Of a stretch of 64,000 bases of DNA, positions 20,268 to 63,976 are shown in pieces (the first letter of the stretch is position 1; every line of letters begins with the position of its first letter). The position numbers were made by a program, and so were the translations under genes. Origin of the DNA: Nocardioides conyzicola. Lineage in GTDB: Bacteria; Actinomycetota; Actinomycetes; Propionibacteriales; Nocardioidaceae. The notes under the pieces are model-generated. The model made no database searches, was not told the origin of the DNA, and worked only from the letters and a program-made list of their open reading frames with translations. Location of the stretch: the NCBI RefSeq assembly GCF_039543825.1, contig NZ_BAABKM010000001.1, positions 62,001 through 126,000 of the forward strand. The letters run 5' to 3'.

Positions 20268-20305
20268 ACTTGCTTCTCTTGCTGCCGACCGCGCACCATG
20301 GAGGT

Positions 20306-21697
20306 ATGAGCACCGCCGACTACGACCACCTGCAGCGCGCCGCGAAGGATCACCTGTGGATGCACTTCACCCGGCACTCGACGTACGACACGTCGGACGT
20401 CCCGATCATCGTCCGCGGTGAGGGTGCCTACATCTACGACGCGCAGGGCAAGCGCTACCTCGACGGTCTGGGTGGGCTGTTCGTGTCGCAGCTGGGTCAC
20501 GGGCGCACCGAGCTCGCCGATGCGGCGGCCGCGCAGGCCAAGGAGCTCGCCTTCCACCCGCTGTGGTCCTACGCGCACCCCAACGCGATCCTGCTCGCCG
20601 AGCGCATCGCCGGCTACGCGCCCGGCGACCTCAACCGCGTCTTCTTCACGACCGGTGGCGGCGAGGCCGTCGAGTCCGCGTGGAAGCTCGCCAAGAACTT
20701 CTTCAAGATCACGGGCAAGCCGATGAAGCACAAGGTGATCAGCCGCTCGATCGCCTACCACGGCACCACCCAGGGCGCCCTGTCGATCACCGGGCTGCCG
20801 CCGCTGAAGCAGCAGTTCGAGCCGCTGGTCCCGTCCACCTTCCGGGTCCCGAACACCAACATCTACCGGGCCTCCGAGGCCACCGGCGGGTTCCTCGACG
20901 GCTCCGACCCCGAGGCCTTCGGTCGCTGGGCCGCCGACCAGATCGCGGTCGCGATCGAGAACGAAGGCCCCGACACCGTCGCGGCCGTCTTCCTGGAGCC
21001 GGTGCAGAACGCCGGCGGATGCTTCCCGCCGCCGCCCGGCTACTTCCAGCGGGTCCGCGAGATCTGCGACGAGTACGACGTGCTGCTGGTCTCCGACGAG
21101 GTCATCTGCGCCTTCGGTCGCCTGGGCTACATGTTCGGCGCCGAGCGCTACGGCTACCAGCCCGACATCATCACCTGCGCCAAGGGCATCACGTCGGGCT
21201 ACTCGCCGCTCGGCGCGATGATCGCCTCCGACCGGCTGATGGAGCCCTTCCTGCACGGCGCCGAGTCCTTCGCCCACGGCTTCACCTTCGGCGGCCACCC
21301 GGTCTCGACCGCCGTCGCGATGGCCAACTTCGACATCTTCGAGAAGGAGCACGTCCTCGAGCACGTGCGCGACCACGAGGGCGCCTTCCGCTCCACCCTC
21401 GAGCGGCTCCTCGACCTGCCGATCGTCGGCGACGTCCGCGGCGACGGCTACTTCTACGGCATCGAGCTCGTCAAGGACAAGGACACCCGCGAGACCTTCG
21501 ACGAGGAGGAGTCCGAGAAGCTGCTCCGCGGCTTCCTCTCCAAGGCGCTCTACGACGAAGGCCTCTACTGCCGCGCCGACGACCGCGGCGACCCGGTCAT
21601 CCAGCTCTCTCCCCCGCTGATCTGCGACCAGACCCACTTCGACGAGATGGAGCAGATCCTCCGCACCGTCCTCGACAAGGCCGCCACCCTCCTGTAA
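20306..21697 (+). CDS. Class III aminotransferase, probable putrescine/omega-amine:pyruvate aminotransferase
   Basis: A 463-residue PLP enzyme of class III. The Schiff-base Lys lies in ITCAKGITSGYSPLGA; the PLP-phosphate loop is TTGGGEAVESAWKLA and the cofactor Asp is in VSDEVICAFGR. Its close fit with the omega-amine:pyruvate/putrescine (SpuC-like) type, and its place among Pot and aldehyde dehydrogenase genes, indicate transfer of a primary amine of putrescine to pyruvate to give 4-aminobutanal. GGAGG is only one base before the ATG, and a three-codon ORF (ATG at 20298) ends in the start codon; translation may be unusual. A short 3-bp gap separates its stop from the inverted-repeat cassette. 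Confidence 0.87.
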   Translation: MSTADYDHLQRAAKDHLWMHFTRHSTYDTSDVPIIVRGEGAYIYDAQGKRYLDGLGGLFVSQLGHGRTELADAAAAQAKELAFHPLWSYAHPNAILLAERIAGYAPGDLNRVFFTTGGGEAVESAWKLAKNFFKITGKPMKHKVISRSIAYHGTTQGALSITGLPPLKQQFEPLVPSTFRVPNTNIYRASEATGGFLDGSDPEAFGRWAADQIAVAIENEGPDTVAAVFLEPVQNAGGCFPPPPGYFQRVREICDEYDVLLVSDEVICAFGRLGYMFGAERYGYQPDIITCAKGITSGYSPLGAMIASDRLMEPFLHGAESFAHGFTFGGHPVSTAVAMANFDIFEKEHVLEHVRDHEGAFRSTLERLLDLPIVGDVRGDGYFYGIELVKDKDTRETFDEEESEKLLRGFLSKALYDEGLYCRADDRGDPVIQLSPPLICDQTHFDEMEQILRTVLDKAATLL

Positions 21698-21700
21698 CCG

Positions 21701-21742
21701 CGAGTCGGCGCCAGATTGCAGCCGAGTCGGCGCCAGATTGCA
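21701..21742 (+). repeat. Left terminal repeat (two tandem 20-bp units)
   Basis: CGAGTCGGCGCCAGATTGCA occurs at 21701-21720 and again at 21723-21742 with GC between. Each unit carries the palindrome GGCGCC. Confidence 0.9.
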
Positions 21743-21802
21743 CTCGCCTCCCGGCGTTGTCCACAGGGGCCGTGCCGCCCTGGTGAGTGAGCCGCAGGCC
21801 CG

Positions 21803-21837
21803 GGCAGGTCTCGTGTCATGGAGACACCAGACCTGCC
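21803..21837 (+). promoter_or_regulatory. Perfect hairpin with the start codon in its loop
   Basis: GGCAGGTCT (21803-21811) pairs with AGACCTGCC (21829-21837), and inside it GTGTC (21813-21817) pairs with GACAC (21823-21827), leaving one C/C mismatch and a five-base loop ATGGA whose ATG is the start codon of the cassette gene. It may be an autoregulatory operator for the gene's own winged-helix domain, or an mRNA hairpin that limits translation. Confidence 0.6.
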
Positions 21838-22756
21838 ACGTCATCCGTTCACGTTCGCCATGGCCCGTGACCTGGGCCTCGACGGGCCTGCCCTCTTCCG
21901 GCTCGTCCGGTACGGCGTCCTGCGCCATCCCGTCCGCGGCGTCTACCTGCCGGCCACGGCCCCGGACACGATCGCGGTGCGCTGTCGGGCGTTGGGCCTG
22001 GTCCTGCCCGGCGATGCCTTCATCTGCGACAGGACCGCGTCGTGGCTCCATGCTGGCGACCGAGCGCTCGCGCCCAACGAGCACCTCGCCGTACCGCCGA
22101 TCTCGTGCTTCCGCCCGAGCGACGGCGGCCGTCTTCGCAACGGGCTCACCGAGAGCGGCGAACGTGCCGTCTTGCCGCAGGACCTGATGGAGATCAACGG
22201 GCTGGTCGTGACGACACCGCTGCGGACGGCACTCGACCTCGGGCGGCTGCAACGGACAGCAGACCTGAAGCTGCACGGCATGGACTGCATGTTGAGCCTG
22301 AACGTCTTCACCCATCAGCACCTGCTCGCCGAGATCCCTCGGTTCAGGCGGCAGCGCGGCGTGGTCGAGCTCCGCGTCCTGGCGCCGCTCGCGGACGGCG
22401 GCTCGGAGTCGTTCGGCGAGAGCGCCGTCCGACTTCGATGGCACGCCGCTGGACTGCCGCCACCGCAGACGCAGATCTCGGTCATGGTCGACGGCCGCGA
22501 GGTCTACCGCATCGATCTCGGTCTGGAGGATCTGCTCTTCGGAGCCGAGTACTTCGGTGAGCAGTGGCACGCCGAGACCGACGCCCCGCACGACGAGGAG
22601 CGCCTCGAGTGGCTGGCCCGCGAGCGTGGTTGGGCGATCGACGTCTTCCGCAAGCAGCACGTCTTCGGTCAGCAGCAGGACGCGGAGCGTCGGTTGAGGA
22701 TCGGGTACGACGCGGTCCGGGCTCGGCTCGGGCTACGCCCCAAGTTCTTTTCGTAA
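21818..22756 (+). CDS. AbiEi-like winged-helix + DUF559/Vsr-like nuclease-fold protein
   Basis: A 312-residue protein. Residues 10-45 (MARDLGLDGPALFRLVRYGV, then LRHPVRGVYLPA) match the N-terminal winged helix of AbiEi-type antitoxins. The C-terminal 110 residues look like a DUF559/Vsr-like PD-(D/E)XK fold: YRIDLG (Asp 233), GAEYFGEQWH (Glu 244) and the closing GWAIDVFRKQ. The usual EYDG has become EYFG, so catalysis is uncertain. No toxin partner (AbiEii) is present. The gene is enclosed by terminal inverted repeats and begins inside a hairpin. Related solitary genes are common in actinobacteria and unexplained. Function: unknown; a DNA-binding or DNA-cutting element protein is the best guess. 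Confidence 0.65.
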   Translation: METPDLPRHPFTFAMARDLGLDGPALFRLVRYGVLRHPVRGVYLPATAPDTIAVRCRALGLVLPGDAFICDRTASWLHAGDRALAPNEHLAVPPISCFRPSDGGRLRNGLTESGERAVLPQDLMEINGLVVTTPLRTALDLGRLQRTADLKLHGMDCMLSLNVFTHQHLLAEIPRFRRQRGVVELRVLAPLADGGSESFGESAVRLRWHAAGLPPPQTQISVMVDGREVYRIDLGLEDLLFGAEYFGEQWHAETDAPHDEERLEWLARERGWAIDVFRKQHVFGQQQDAERRLRIGYDAVRARLGLRPKFFS

Positions 22757-22757
22757 G

Positions 22758-22799
22758 TGCAATCTGGCGCCGACTCGGCTCGAATCTGGCGCCGACTCG
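22758..22799 (-). repeat. Right terminal repeat (inverted copy of the left)
   Basis: Reverse complement of 21701-21742 with two mismatches. It starts one base after the cassette gene's stop codon and ends 8 bases before the PotC stop. Confidence 0.9.
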
Positions 22800-22807
22800 G
22801 CGATGGG

Positions 22808-23671
22808 TCAGGTGAGGGCGCGCTGGCGGCGGCGGCTGTTGACCTCGCCGCCGACGACGATCAGGACCGAGATCAGGAACATCACGGTGCCGACCACGTT
22901 GACCTGCATCGGTACGCCGCGCTGGGCGACGCCCCAGACGAACATCGGGAACGTCGTGGTGTTGCCGGCGTTGAGGTTGGTGACGATGAAGTCGTCGAAG
23001 GACAGCGAGAAGCTGAGCAGCGCCGCACCCAGGATGCCGGGGAAGACCAGCGGGAAGGTCACCCGCCAGAACGTCTGCTGCGGGGTGGCGTAGAGGTCCA
23101 TCGCCGCCTGTTCGAGGTTGTCGTCGAGACCGGCCAACCGGGCTCTCACGGTGACCACCACGAACGAGATGCAGAACATGATGTGCGCGATCAGGATCGT
23201 CCAGAAGCCGAGCTGACCGCCACGGCCCGCGGCCACGAACAACGCCAGCAGCGAGGACCCCATCACGATCTCGGGCGAGGCCATCGGCAGGAAGATCAGC
23301 AGGTTCATCGAGGACCGGCCGACGAAGTCGTGGCGGACCAGGGCGAAGGCGATCAGGGTGCCGAGGACCGTCGAGCCGAGGGTCGCGAGCAGGCCGATCT
23401 CGATGCTCGTGCCGAGGGCGCTGCACATGCCCTCGGCCTCGCACGGGTTGAGCCAGTTGTGGAGCGTGAAGCCGTCGAAGCGGTAGATCAGCCGGCTGGT
23501 CGGGGCGTTGAAGCTCATCAGCACGACCACGAAGATCGGCACGAACGTGTAGACCAGCACGATCAGGCCGAGGATCAGGACCAGGTGTCCACGCAGCCAG
23601 CGACCCGCCGCGGAGCCCTGCTTGTAGGTGACCGTCCGGTTGCCCGTCGCGGTGCTGGTGGAGGTGCTCAC
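22808..23671 (-). CDS. potC: Spermidine/putrescine ABC transporter permease (PotC-like)
   Basis: A 287-residue inner-membrane permease of the binding-protein-dependent transport type, with about six membrane segments. The cytoplasmic EAA loop (EQAAMDLYATPQQTFWRVTF) that docks to the ATPase is near residue 190. It pairs with the PotB-like permease just upstream, whose stop it overlaps (GTGA). Last gene of the potABCD-type operon, in the order D-A-B-C. The 3' end abuts the inverted-repeat cassette. Confidence 0.87.
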   Translation of the reverse strand: MSTSTSTATGNRTVTYKQGSAAGRWLRGHLVLILGLIVLVYTFVPIFVVVLMSFNAPTSRLIYRFDGFTLHNWLNPCEAEGMCSALGTSIEIGLLATLGSTVLGTLIAFALVRHDFVGRSSMNLLIFLPMASPEIVMGSSLLALFVAAGRGGQLGFWTILIAHIMFCISFVVVTVRARLAGLDDNLEQAAMDLYATPQQTFWRVTFPLVFPGILGAALLSFSLSFDDFIVTNLNAGNTTTFPMFVWGVAQRGVPMQVNVVGTVMFLISVLIVVGGEVNSRRRQRALT

Positions 23672-61770: not shown

Positions 61771-63976
61771 GAGCGGCCCGTACGGCGTGCGCGGCCTCGG
61801 CCGCACGCTGGTCGCTGAGCACCCCGGCGTGCGCCTCCTGCAGGTAGAAGACGTCCACCGCCTGCGGTCCCAGGGTGTCGACGTGGGCCGACCGGACGGC
61901 GATGTCGAGGTCGGCCAGCGCCGCGCAGGCCAGGTAGACGACCCCCGGCCGGTCGCCGGTCCGGACCTCGAGGACCGTCGCCTGCTGCGACGCCTCCGGA
62001 CGTACGGCGACGGTCGGCTCGAGCGCGTCGGTCGCGGACGCCCGGCGGAGCCGCTTGGAGGCCTCGACCCGGCCGGCGACGACCGCTTCGTACCGTTGCC
62101 GCAGCACGGCCGCGTCGAGGTCGGGCACGCCGACCTCCCAGACGGAGACGCCGTACTGCTCCTGCGCCCAGGCGCGCGCGGCGCGCACGGGGATGCGCTG
62201 CAGCGCGAACATGGCCGCGAAGTCGGCCAGCAGGCCGACCCGGTCGGGTGCGATGACCGTGACGCGGGTGCCGTCCTCGTCGTGCTCGACGGTGATCGCC
62301 GCCGAGCCGCGGCGTACCTCCTTGGGGATCTGGACGTCGTCGGTGACGATCGGCGGCAGCGCCACCCCGGAGTCCAGGGCGGCCCGCGCGCGCCGCGCCA
62401 GGTCGTTGATCAGGCCGGACCGCCAGGCGGACCAGGCCTTCGGTGAGGCCGCCTTCGCGTCGGCCTCGGACAGCGCGAGCAGCAGGTCCAGCGCCTCCAC
62501 GGACCCGACGCGGTCGGTGATGAGCTCGACGGTGGCGGGGTCGTCGGGGTCGCGGGTGGTGGCGGTCTCGGCGAGCACGAGGTGCCACCGCACCAGCCGC
62601 GCGATCAGGTCGACCGCGTCCGGCGCGAAGCCCATCCGGGTGGCGACCTCGCGGGCGATCGGCTCGCCGGCCACGCTGTGCTCGGTCAGGCTCCCCTTGC
62701 CGATGTCGTGGAGCAGCGCCGCGACCATGAGCACGTCGGGCCGGGCCACGTGGCGGATCAGGGCGGACGCCTCGATGCAGGTCTCGACGACGTGCCGGTC
62801 CACGGTGAACCGGTGGATCGCCGACGCGTGCGGCAGCATCCGGATCCGGTCCCACTCGGGGAGCGCCCGGCTCATGGCGCCGGTCTCCTCGAGCGTCTCC
62901 CAGACGGCCAGCAGGCCGCGGCCCGAGGCGAGGAGCCGCACCAGCAGCTGCCGTGCCTCGGCGGGCCACGGAGTCGGCAGCGGGACGCCCTCGCGGGCCA
63001 GCCGGGCCGCGGTCGCGGGAGCCAGGACCACGTCGTGCTCGGCTGCCGCCGCCGCCGCTCGCAGCAGGAGGACGGGGTCCTCGGCCGGTCGGGCGGACCG
63101 GTCCAGCACGACCTCACCGTTGGAGAGCGCGACGCCGGGTGCCAGCGGGGTCAGCTCGGGGCGCCGCGCGCGCTGGTTGGGGGCCGGCCGCGCCAGCGCG
63201 GCGTCGACCCGGCGCCAGGTCAGGTGCGAGAGGTGGGTGATGCGGCGACCGAGCTCGCGCACGTGGATCTGGGCCTCGCGTGCGTCGGTCAGCCCCAGCG
63301 CGTGCCCGAGGTCGCTCCACTGCTCGGGGTTGATCCGGTCGGTCGGCCGGCCCGCGGTGTCCTGCAGCGCGTCGCGCACGTCGAGCATGGTCAGGCGCAC
63401 CCGCTCGAGCTCCACGTGCGGCACGTCGACCATCCAGGTCGCGACCAGGGCCTTGAGGACGGTCGCGTCGCGGAGGCCGCCCTCGGCCTCCTTGATGTCG
63501 GGCACCGAGAGGTGGGCGACCTCGCCGACCGACTCGTGCCGGGCGCGGACCATGGCCTGCAGGGCGGGCAGCCGCTCCTTGGCGGTCCGGCGCCAGCTGG
63601 CGAGCATCGTCGTGCGCAGCCGCAGGGTGAGGTGGGGGTCGCCGGCCAGGTGGCGTACGTCGAGCAGACCGAGCGCGACCTTCAGGTCGGCGTCGGCGGC
63701 ACTCACCATCTCGCTCATCGTGCGCACCGAGTGGTCGAGCCGGGCGCCGGAGTCCCACAGCGGGTACCAGACCTTCTCGGCGACCGCCCGGACGTCGACC
63801 CCGTCGTCCGAGACCAGGACGACGTCGAGGTCGGAGTAGGGAGCCAGCTCGCGTCGTCCGTAGCCGCCGACGGCGACCAGCGCGGCCCCGGACTCCGGGC
63901 CGCCGCTGTCGCGGTAGGCCTCGGCGCAGAGCGCGTCGGCCTCGTCGGCTCGGCGCGTGCGGTCGGATGCGCTCAG
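61745..63976 (-). CDS. glnD: Bifunctional [protein-PII] uridylyltransferase / uridylyl-removing enzyme
   Basis: About 743 residues. The nucleotidyltransferase motif is GGYGRRELAPYSDLD, near residue 45. The HD domain has HRFTVDRHVVETCIEA and LLHDIGKG, and two C-terminal ACT domains follow (RVTVIAPDRVGLLADFAAM, RTGDRPGVVYLACAALAD) that bind glutamine. It modifies PII according to nitrogen status. No ATG/GTG precedes the conserved start region; CTG 63976 in a CTGA overlap with the glnB stop gives LSASDRTRR and is the likely start. If not, the gene begins outside the window. Confidence 0.9.
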   Translation of the reverse strand: MSASDRTRRADEADALCAEAYRDSGGPESGAALVAVGGYGRRELAPYSDLDVVLVSDDGVDVRAVAEKVWYPLWDSGARLDHSVRTMSEMVSAADADLKVALGLLDVRHLAGDPHLTLRLRTTMLASWRRTAKERLPALQAMVRARHESVGEVAHLSVPDIKEAEGGLRDATVLKALVATWMVDVPHVELERVRLTMLDVRDALQDTAGRPTDRINPEQWSDLGHALGLTDAREAQIHVRELGRRITHLSHLTWRRVDAALARPAPNQRARRPELTPLAPGVALSNGEVVLDRSARPAEDPVLLLRAAAAAAEHDVVLAPATAARLAREGVPLPTPWPAEARQLLVRLLASGRGLLAVWETLEETGAMSRALPEWDRIRMLPHASAIHRFTVDRHVVETCIEASALIRHVARPDVLMVAALLHDIGKGSLTEHSVAGEPIAREVATRMGFAPDAVDLIARLVRWHLVLAETATTRDPDDPATVELITDRVGSVEALDLLLALSEADAKAASPKAWSAWRSGLINDLARRARAALDSGVALPPIVTDDVQIPKEVRRGSAAITVEHDEDGTRVTVIAPDRVGLLADFAAMFALQRIPVRAARAWAQEQYGVSVWEVGVPDLDAAVLRQRYEAVVAGRVEASKRLRRASATDALEPTVAVRPEASQQATVLEVRTGDRPGVVYLACAALADLDIAVRSAHVDTLGPQAVDVFYLQEAHAGVLSDQRAAEAAHAVRAALTAAAGGS

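Follow-up and report, generated by a model that had tools for sequence, protein, structure and literature searches.

The locus studied here raises the question of whether a gene lying between its own inverted repeats travels with them as a mobile cassette, or whether the repeats belong to the gene in some other way. The locus occupies positions 21,701 to 22,799 of a 64,000-nt stretch of DNA from Nocardioides conyzicola (positions 62,001 to 126,000 of contig NZ_BAABKM010000001.1), which is referred to below as the window. It consists of one open reading frame (ORF) of 312 aa for a nuclease, enclosed by two arms of 44 nt each, which are 95% complementary and contain two units of ~20 nt with a 22-nt spacing. 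The inverted ends and the single enclosed gene had been described in an earlier, sequence-only reading of the window, and both proved to be real. The comparisons described below suggest, with a probability of about 0.6, that the gene and the ~20-bp units form one co-evolving system, which would be run by the nuclease. Such a system would resemble the doublets of repetitive extragenic palindromic (REP) sequences that form hairpins (REPINs), and it would be of a kind other than that of REP-associated tyrosine transposases (RAYTs).

The inverted-repeat score at the nuclease locus was 38, and 80 gene-sized intervals drawn at random from the window scored 13 at most. An inverted repeat was counted as bracketing a gene at a score of at least 16. 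Such repeats were found at 29 of 31 loci of the nuclease family, at 32 of 40 further loci, one of which (L088) was cut by a contig end, and at 70 of the 80 named loci, the top 80 among 178 homologous ones; the three sets have genomes in common. Shifted controls from the same loci reached this score in 1 of 295 cases, and the units varied widely from locus to locus. Direct repeats within the arms were present in 120 of 160 arms versus 3 of 149 control segments. In a class-wide count, which covered the 18 loci, out of 30, that come from other genera and 20 fetched, more distant loci, the score of 16 was reached by 14 and 11 loci, respectively, and by 2 of 39 controls, all taken from the more distant set. 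These data agree with the earlier suggestion of an uncharacterized family, and matched inverted repeats are present at most of the other copies examined. A null distribution built across loci was dropped, because its very high scores came from homologous flanking genes, and the window and the same-locus shifted controls were used instead. In the left arms a YGA motif favoured one strand weakly (203 versus 161), and this bias was not used.

The unit also recurs away from the gene. In the genome that holds the window (G000, 4.96 Mb) the unit GAGTCGGCGCCAGATT gave 48 matches with at most two mismatches, four of them in the cassette, and the reversed pattern gave one, so the ends are not unique to this locus. 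Nineteen other places were read, and 17 of them contained units in + then - order around a short centre, with no gene enclosed; of the other two, L028 has two + units and L031 a single recognizable unit. Three single matches with two mismatches (C1:533687, C1:573493 and C2:1349603) were left unread. The nuclease is represented in G000 by itself and one 39% relative (L012), that is, by a single close copy. The item that is dispersed and turned over is the ~20-bp unit in the form of gene-free inverted pairs, and not the 1.1-kb cassette. The second nuclease of the same family (L012, G000:C5:111850-112689) has arms built of a different unit, which gave 71 matches in G000 with at most two mismatches, and none for the reversed control. 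This unit was found in 23 places, 20 of them in + then - order, and two of the three exceptions are the arms of the L012 gene itself. G000 contains two orthogonal nuclease-unit systems.

In the genus, the core pattern GCCGAGTCGGCG-N10-40-CGCCGACTCGGC was found in 34 of 147 genomes and the reversed pattern in none, and the tails of the core-pattern units differ between genomes. The tails of dispersed units were compared with the flanks of nuclease genes in 14 of the 16 genomes with listed hairpins (G090 has no nuclease locus, and G011 was left out). The tails sought came from most of the dispersed copies listed for these genomes; not among them are a copy next to a nuclease gene (one each from G101, G067 and G113), a long copy of G101, and copies of G021, G040, G098 and G110 that were repeated, overlapped others or were variants. 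The mean match was 0.32 to the flanks of the own genome and 0.009 to those of other genomes, and 0 of 20000 permutations were as good. In 8 of the 14 genomes the dispersed units matched the nuclease arrays of their own genome. In G054 the nuclease L044 matched 7 of 20 tails and L067 matched 10 of 20, in different subfamilies. In other actinomycete families, another core was found in 17 (G317), 13 (G412) and 19 (G256) dispersed pairs, and it was absent from the other 7 of 10 genomes searched, including G000 and G101. The tails of G317 and G256 are present in their own nuclease flanks, and that of G412 is present in part. On these comparisons, the coupling of nuclease and unit is well supported. 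Palindromes of 34 bp, of the type GCCGAGTCGGCGCGT..ACGCGCCGACTCGGC, were also seen in G001, G113 and G110, where they match no fetched nuclease array of their own genome.

The history of the dispersed units was followed at 59 sites from four genomes (19 from G000, 20 from G101, 10 from G040 and 10 from G054). Both flanks were homologous in 17 site pairs, 10 of which were between G000 and G101, and three more pairs shared one flank. In several orthologous pairs the flanks were conserved up close to the hairpin and the inner part was different. The mean tail identity was 0.28 between orthologous sites and 0.35 between non-orthologous sites of different genomes. Between different sites within a genome it was 0.67 in G000, where the tail had served as a site-finding criterion, and 0.92, 0.69 and 0.56 in G101, G040 and G054, where it had not. 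The presence of different, genome-specific units at orthologous positions argues for concerted evolution, and repeated insertion at the same points could be an alternative. In G101, 16 of 22 pairs were identical over the entire 42 bp, centre included, which points to recent copying. The genome-specific letters at scattered units suggest that the enzyme may copy or rewrite its own sites genome-wide. The + then - order is uninformative for the sites of G101, G040 and G054, because the search pattern required that order; the G000 sites are unbiased for orientation (17 of 19 for the first unit and 20 of 23 for the second).

The spacing between the innermost + and - units in G000 was restricted to certain values, which follow the helical turn of DNA. 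For the first unit (17 places) these were 20-21, 29-31, 41-42 and 61, and for the second unit (20 places) 20, 29, 40-41, 50-51 and 71-72. The resultants at 10.4 bp were 0.91 and 0.96, with best periods of 10.3 and 10.4. As copies from one genome depend on each other, the P values calculated for this phasing are too small, but distinct spacing values alone gave resultants of 0.88 and 0.94. Weaker phasing was observed in G060, G040 and G054 (resultants of 0.84, 0.77 and 0.70; best periods of 9.95, 10.6 and 9.9), and the resultants for G317, G412 and G256 were 0.85, 0.82 and 0.81. Among the spacings within arrays at 80 loci, 37 of 120 were at 21-22, 61 at 31-32 and 12 at 41-44, and the best period was 10.6 with a resultant of 0.90, compared with 0.26 for the 99% level of the null. 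Hairpin pairing in a single strand gives the spacing no reason, while a protein on one face of a duplex does, and hence the phased spacings point to recognition of double-stranded DNA.

The protein joins an AbiEi-antitoxin-like part to a nuclease of the Vsr/EDxHD type. Among 53 homologues, Pfam matches at E<=0.01 were obtained to AbiEi_4 in 40, to MTES_1575 REase in 40 and to DUF559 in 15, which bears out, for the family, the earlier assignment of an AbiEi-like and a DUF559/Vsr-like domain. The protein of the window itself was below the Pfam cut-offs, and it was matched by the AbiEi models of PADLOC with a best E of 5.7e-08. The search of NCBIfam gave no match, that of PDB sequences nothing convincing (best E 0.035), and no match to the Y1 transposase (PF01797) was seen in the protein. 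The N-terminal 193 residues of the AlphaFold model (predicted local distance difference test score of 92.9) fit the AbiEi structure 6y8q and presumably serve as the unit-binding module. The closest nuclease fold was that of the homing endonuclease I-Bth0305I. Residues E201, D233, E244, H251 and D259 were each kept in 51-53 of the 53 homologue rows. We take them to be the residues of the EDxHD motif, by their order rather than by superposition, and the protein has with them both the EDxHD/Vsr fold and its catalytic residues. Homologues were found at E<=1e-10 in 126 of 147 genomes of the genus and at E<=1e-15 in 197 of 296 genomes of the class-wide sample; the best named one is from Nocardioides sp. 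URHA0020 (76%), and elsewhere in the genus as many as four homologues are listed for a single genome. In one genus of the class sample (family f7, genus g13) many genomes have at least eight homologues, with inverted repeats at some and none at others.

A tentative mechanism, to which we give somewhat less than even chances, is a distributed form of homing, in which an AbiEi-guided EDxHD nuclease would act on phased, inverted units in duplex DNA, and break repair would rewrite all sites in place. In the system run by the nuclease, as favoured above, the AbiEi-like part would bind each unit in double-stranded DNA, and two protomers on inverted halves, located on one face of the helix, would join their Vsr/EDxHD nuclease domains between them. 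A nick or break between the halves would then be repaired from another copy, and the repair would copy units into existing sites and homogenize them across these sites. The arrays beside the gene could be a home set, which links the unit to the specificity of the enzyme. If distributed homing is true, the sites and the enzyme specificity of each species would change together, and several systems could run side by side in a genome. Both the catalysis and the direction of cause are what we infer from the sequence comparisons.

Several observations weigh against a system run by the nuclease. The evidence is comparative throughout. Ten of the 80 named loci score below 16. Six of the 14 genomes (G001, G113, G110, G098, G021 and G058) showed no match to their own fetched nuclease arrays, the tails of G000 also matched the flanks of G040 (0.32), and several further nuclease copies (for example, L215 and L216 in G054 and L223 and L224 in G060) matched no listed tail. 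Core hairpins were present in G090 (seven) and G119 (one), which have no homologue at E<=1e-10. Repair from a gene-bearing site should also lead to the accumulation of gene copies at dispersed sites, and none were found in G000. The seven core hairpins of G090 are uniform, and the nuclease of this genome has possibly been lost or become divergent.

The main rival to copying driven by the nuclease is a host regulator, which would bind paired sites at gene ends for transcription termination or for the control of convergent genes or of chromosome structure, and whose sites would follow its specificity by selection. We consider it unlikely. The sites are mostly located after stop codons: with ORFs called by composition and not by annotation, 33 of the 59 dispersed sites were between convergent ORFs, 24 between ORFs of the same direction, one between divergent ORFs and one inside an ORF call, while the median distance from stop to unit was 9.5 nt, and 72 of 90 sides were within 25 nt. 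Some positions are conserved between genomes, and binding by an AbiEi antitoxin to palindromes of its own promoter is described in PMC11062541. On the other hand, the identical 42-bp pairs of G101 look like copying, and regulation needs no conserved nuclease active site. The gene-end position could also be explained if ordinary hairpin terminators or REPs of the RAYT type flanked the gene by chance, and a dispersed pair folds strongly, at -29 kcal/mol as DNA. This is very improbable in view of the phased spacing and of the rarity of bracketing repeats in the shifted controls. No run of at least four T was seen by eye directly after the dispersed hairpins of G000, and Y1_Tnp of the RAYT type was absent at E<=0.001 from 8 of 8 genomes, while five of the 14 control genomes gave a match in the control search. 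A search of Rfam gave a single sub-threshold chance match.

A mobile cassette of one gene bounded by terminal inverted repeats, which the sequence-only reading had raised, was not supported, and we regard it as having only a slight chance. The genes flanking the locus are presumably those of a class III aminotransferase and an ABC transporter permease. Among 30 permease loci the aminotransferase was also found at 15, and the nuclease gene was present in 2 of these 15 and absent from 13, so the cassette site is not always occupied, which would fit mobility. The family is also found at several different sites, and three loci that share one flank with the others of a group (L037, L049 and L092) carry this flank the other way round with respect to the gene. 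Against mobility, there is one close copy in G000, the gene has one orientation in every group of loci sharing both flanks, the ends are tandem units that also occur gene-free elsewhere, and inspection by eye revealed no target-site duplication at the cassette ends. A defence or self-marking nuclease, for which the units would be self tags or titration sites that hold an otherwise harmful enzyme, is about as improbable. The PADLOC similarity to AbiEi and the nuclease fold would fit it, but no non-overlapping ORF of at least 80 aa that could be an AbiEii-type toxin partner lies between the arms, in line with the earlier remark on the missing toxin, and the homogenization within genomes and the helical phasing have no obvious reason in defence.

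Among known systems, the nuclease-unit system resembles the REP/REPIN-RAYT systems in that the enzyme gene is flanked by the repeat and that inverted doublets are dispersed between genes, often just past convergent gene ends, according to PMC8049555 and PMC3733652, which also describe RAYTs as single-copy and vertically inherited. It differs in that the enzyme is an AbiEi-like and Vsr/EDxHD nuclease and not an HUH/Y1 protein, and in the concerted differences between genomes at orthologous sites. The GTAG-type tag is absent from the main units of both G000 families, and the variant tails of L019 and L022 are the only ones that contain it. According to PMC8266576, the substrate of TnpA-REP is single-stranded REP DNA, whereas the helical phasing observed here points to a duplex. 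The EDxHD homing endonuclease I-Bth0305I has a similar fold and a target of similar length (PMC3943268), but here no intron or intein was seen, the sites and not the gene are multiplied, and the DNA-binding part is AbiEi-like. The AbiEi of type IV AbiE systems is similar to the N-terminal part in structure and binds inverted repeats (PMC11062541), while here the toxin partner is missing between the arms, a nuclease is fused, and the sites are dispersed in the genome. From insertion sequences and miniature inverted-repeat transposable elements the system differs by the single close copy of the gene element and by the lack of a visible target duplication. We set it apart as a new kind, since what defines each of the two nearest kinds is lacking or undemonstrated here; defined by behaviour alone, it would be a new variant of REP systems. 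No description of a comparable nuclease-repeat system was found in open-licence PubMed Central papers, for which some of the sets of search terms were narrow. If the nuclease-run system is real, bacteria would have a second enzymatic way, unrelated to the first, of maintaining populations of repeats in their genomes, and the system would add a bacterial example of dispersed sites that evolve in concert across a whole genome. The many natural pairs of enzyme and unit, with different specificity, could also supply DNA-binding nucleases with long targets.

The layout of the locus is given in Table 1. The flanking ORFs are convergent, with stops at 21697 (+) and 22808 (-); the left arm starts 3 nt past the first stop and the right arm ends 8 nt short of the second, and the element fills the gap between them much as the sequence-only reading had described. 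The other ORFs in the list overlap the nuclease gene.

Table 1. Features of the nuclease locus and its neighbours, in window coordinates.
Feature	Position	Strand	Description
Left arm	21701..21744	+	Two direct units, 21701-21720 and 21723-21742, 22-nt spacing
Right arm	22756..22799	-	Two inverted units, about 22758-22777 and 22780-22799
Nuclease gene	21818..22756	+	312-aa ORF between both arms
AbiEi-antitoxin-like part	21818..22396	+	Residues 1-193; winged helix (about 1-49) and middle domain
Vsr/EDxHD-type nuclease part	22397..22726	+	Residues 194-303
Left neighbour ORF	20270..21697	+	Presumably class III aminotransferase-like
Right neighbour ORF	22808..23671	-	Presumably ABC transporter permease-like

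The cassette site, with both flanks shared, is occupied in six genomes (L011, L033, L034, L035, L042 and L044). An apparent inversion of the cassette at one site was an artefact of minus-strand loci that had not been turned, and loci oriented by the gene give one orientation in each group sharing both flanks. At the loci that lack the gene, the smallest gap between the aminotransferase and permease alignments was 21 bp. From the reading of the gaps between alignments, at least two of the 13 (L192 and L195) seem to hold another gene, and L198 (G014) and L199 (G034) contain, at the orthologous junction, tandem arrays in inverted arrangement that enclose no nuclease gene and are built of another unit, of the GTTGAGTCGTC type. 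At the same junction, L186 (G010) and L201 (G033) have several hundred bases of unrelated repeats, of the GGTCTCGATACGCTCGCTACTCGACCACC and GTCGAGGAGGTCGCGC types. At eight other loci (L054, L057, L066, L069, L070, L071, L076 and L077) the left and right flanks were grouped together by similarity, one inverted with respect to the other, over at least 150 bases.
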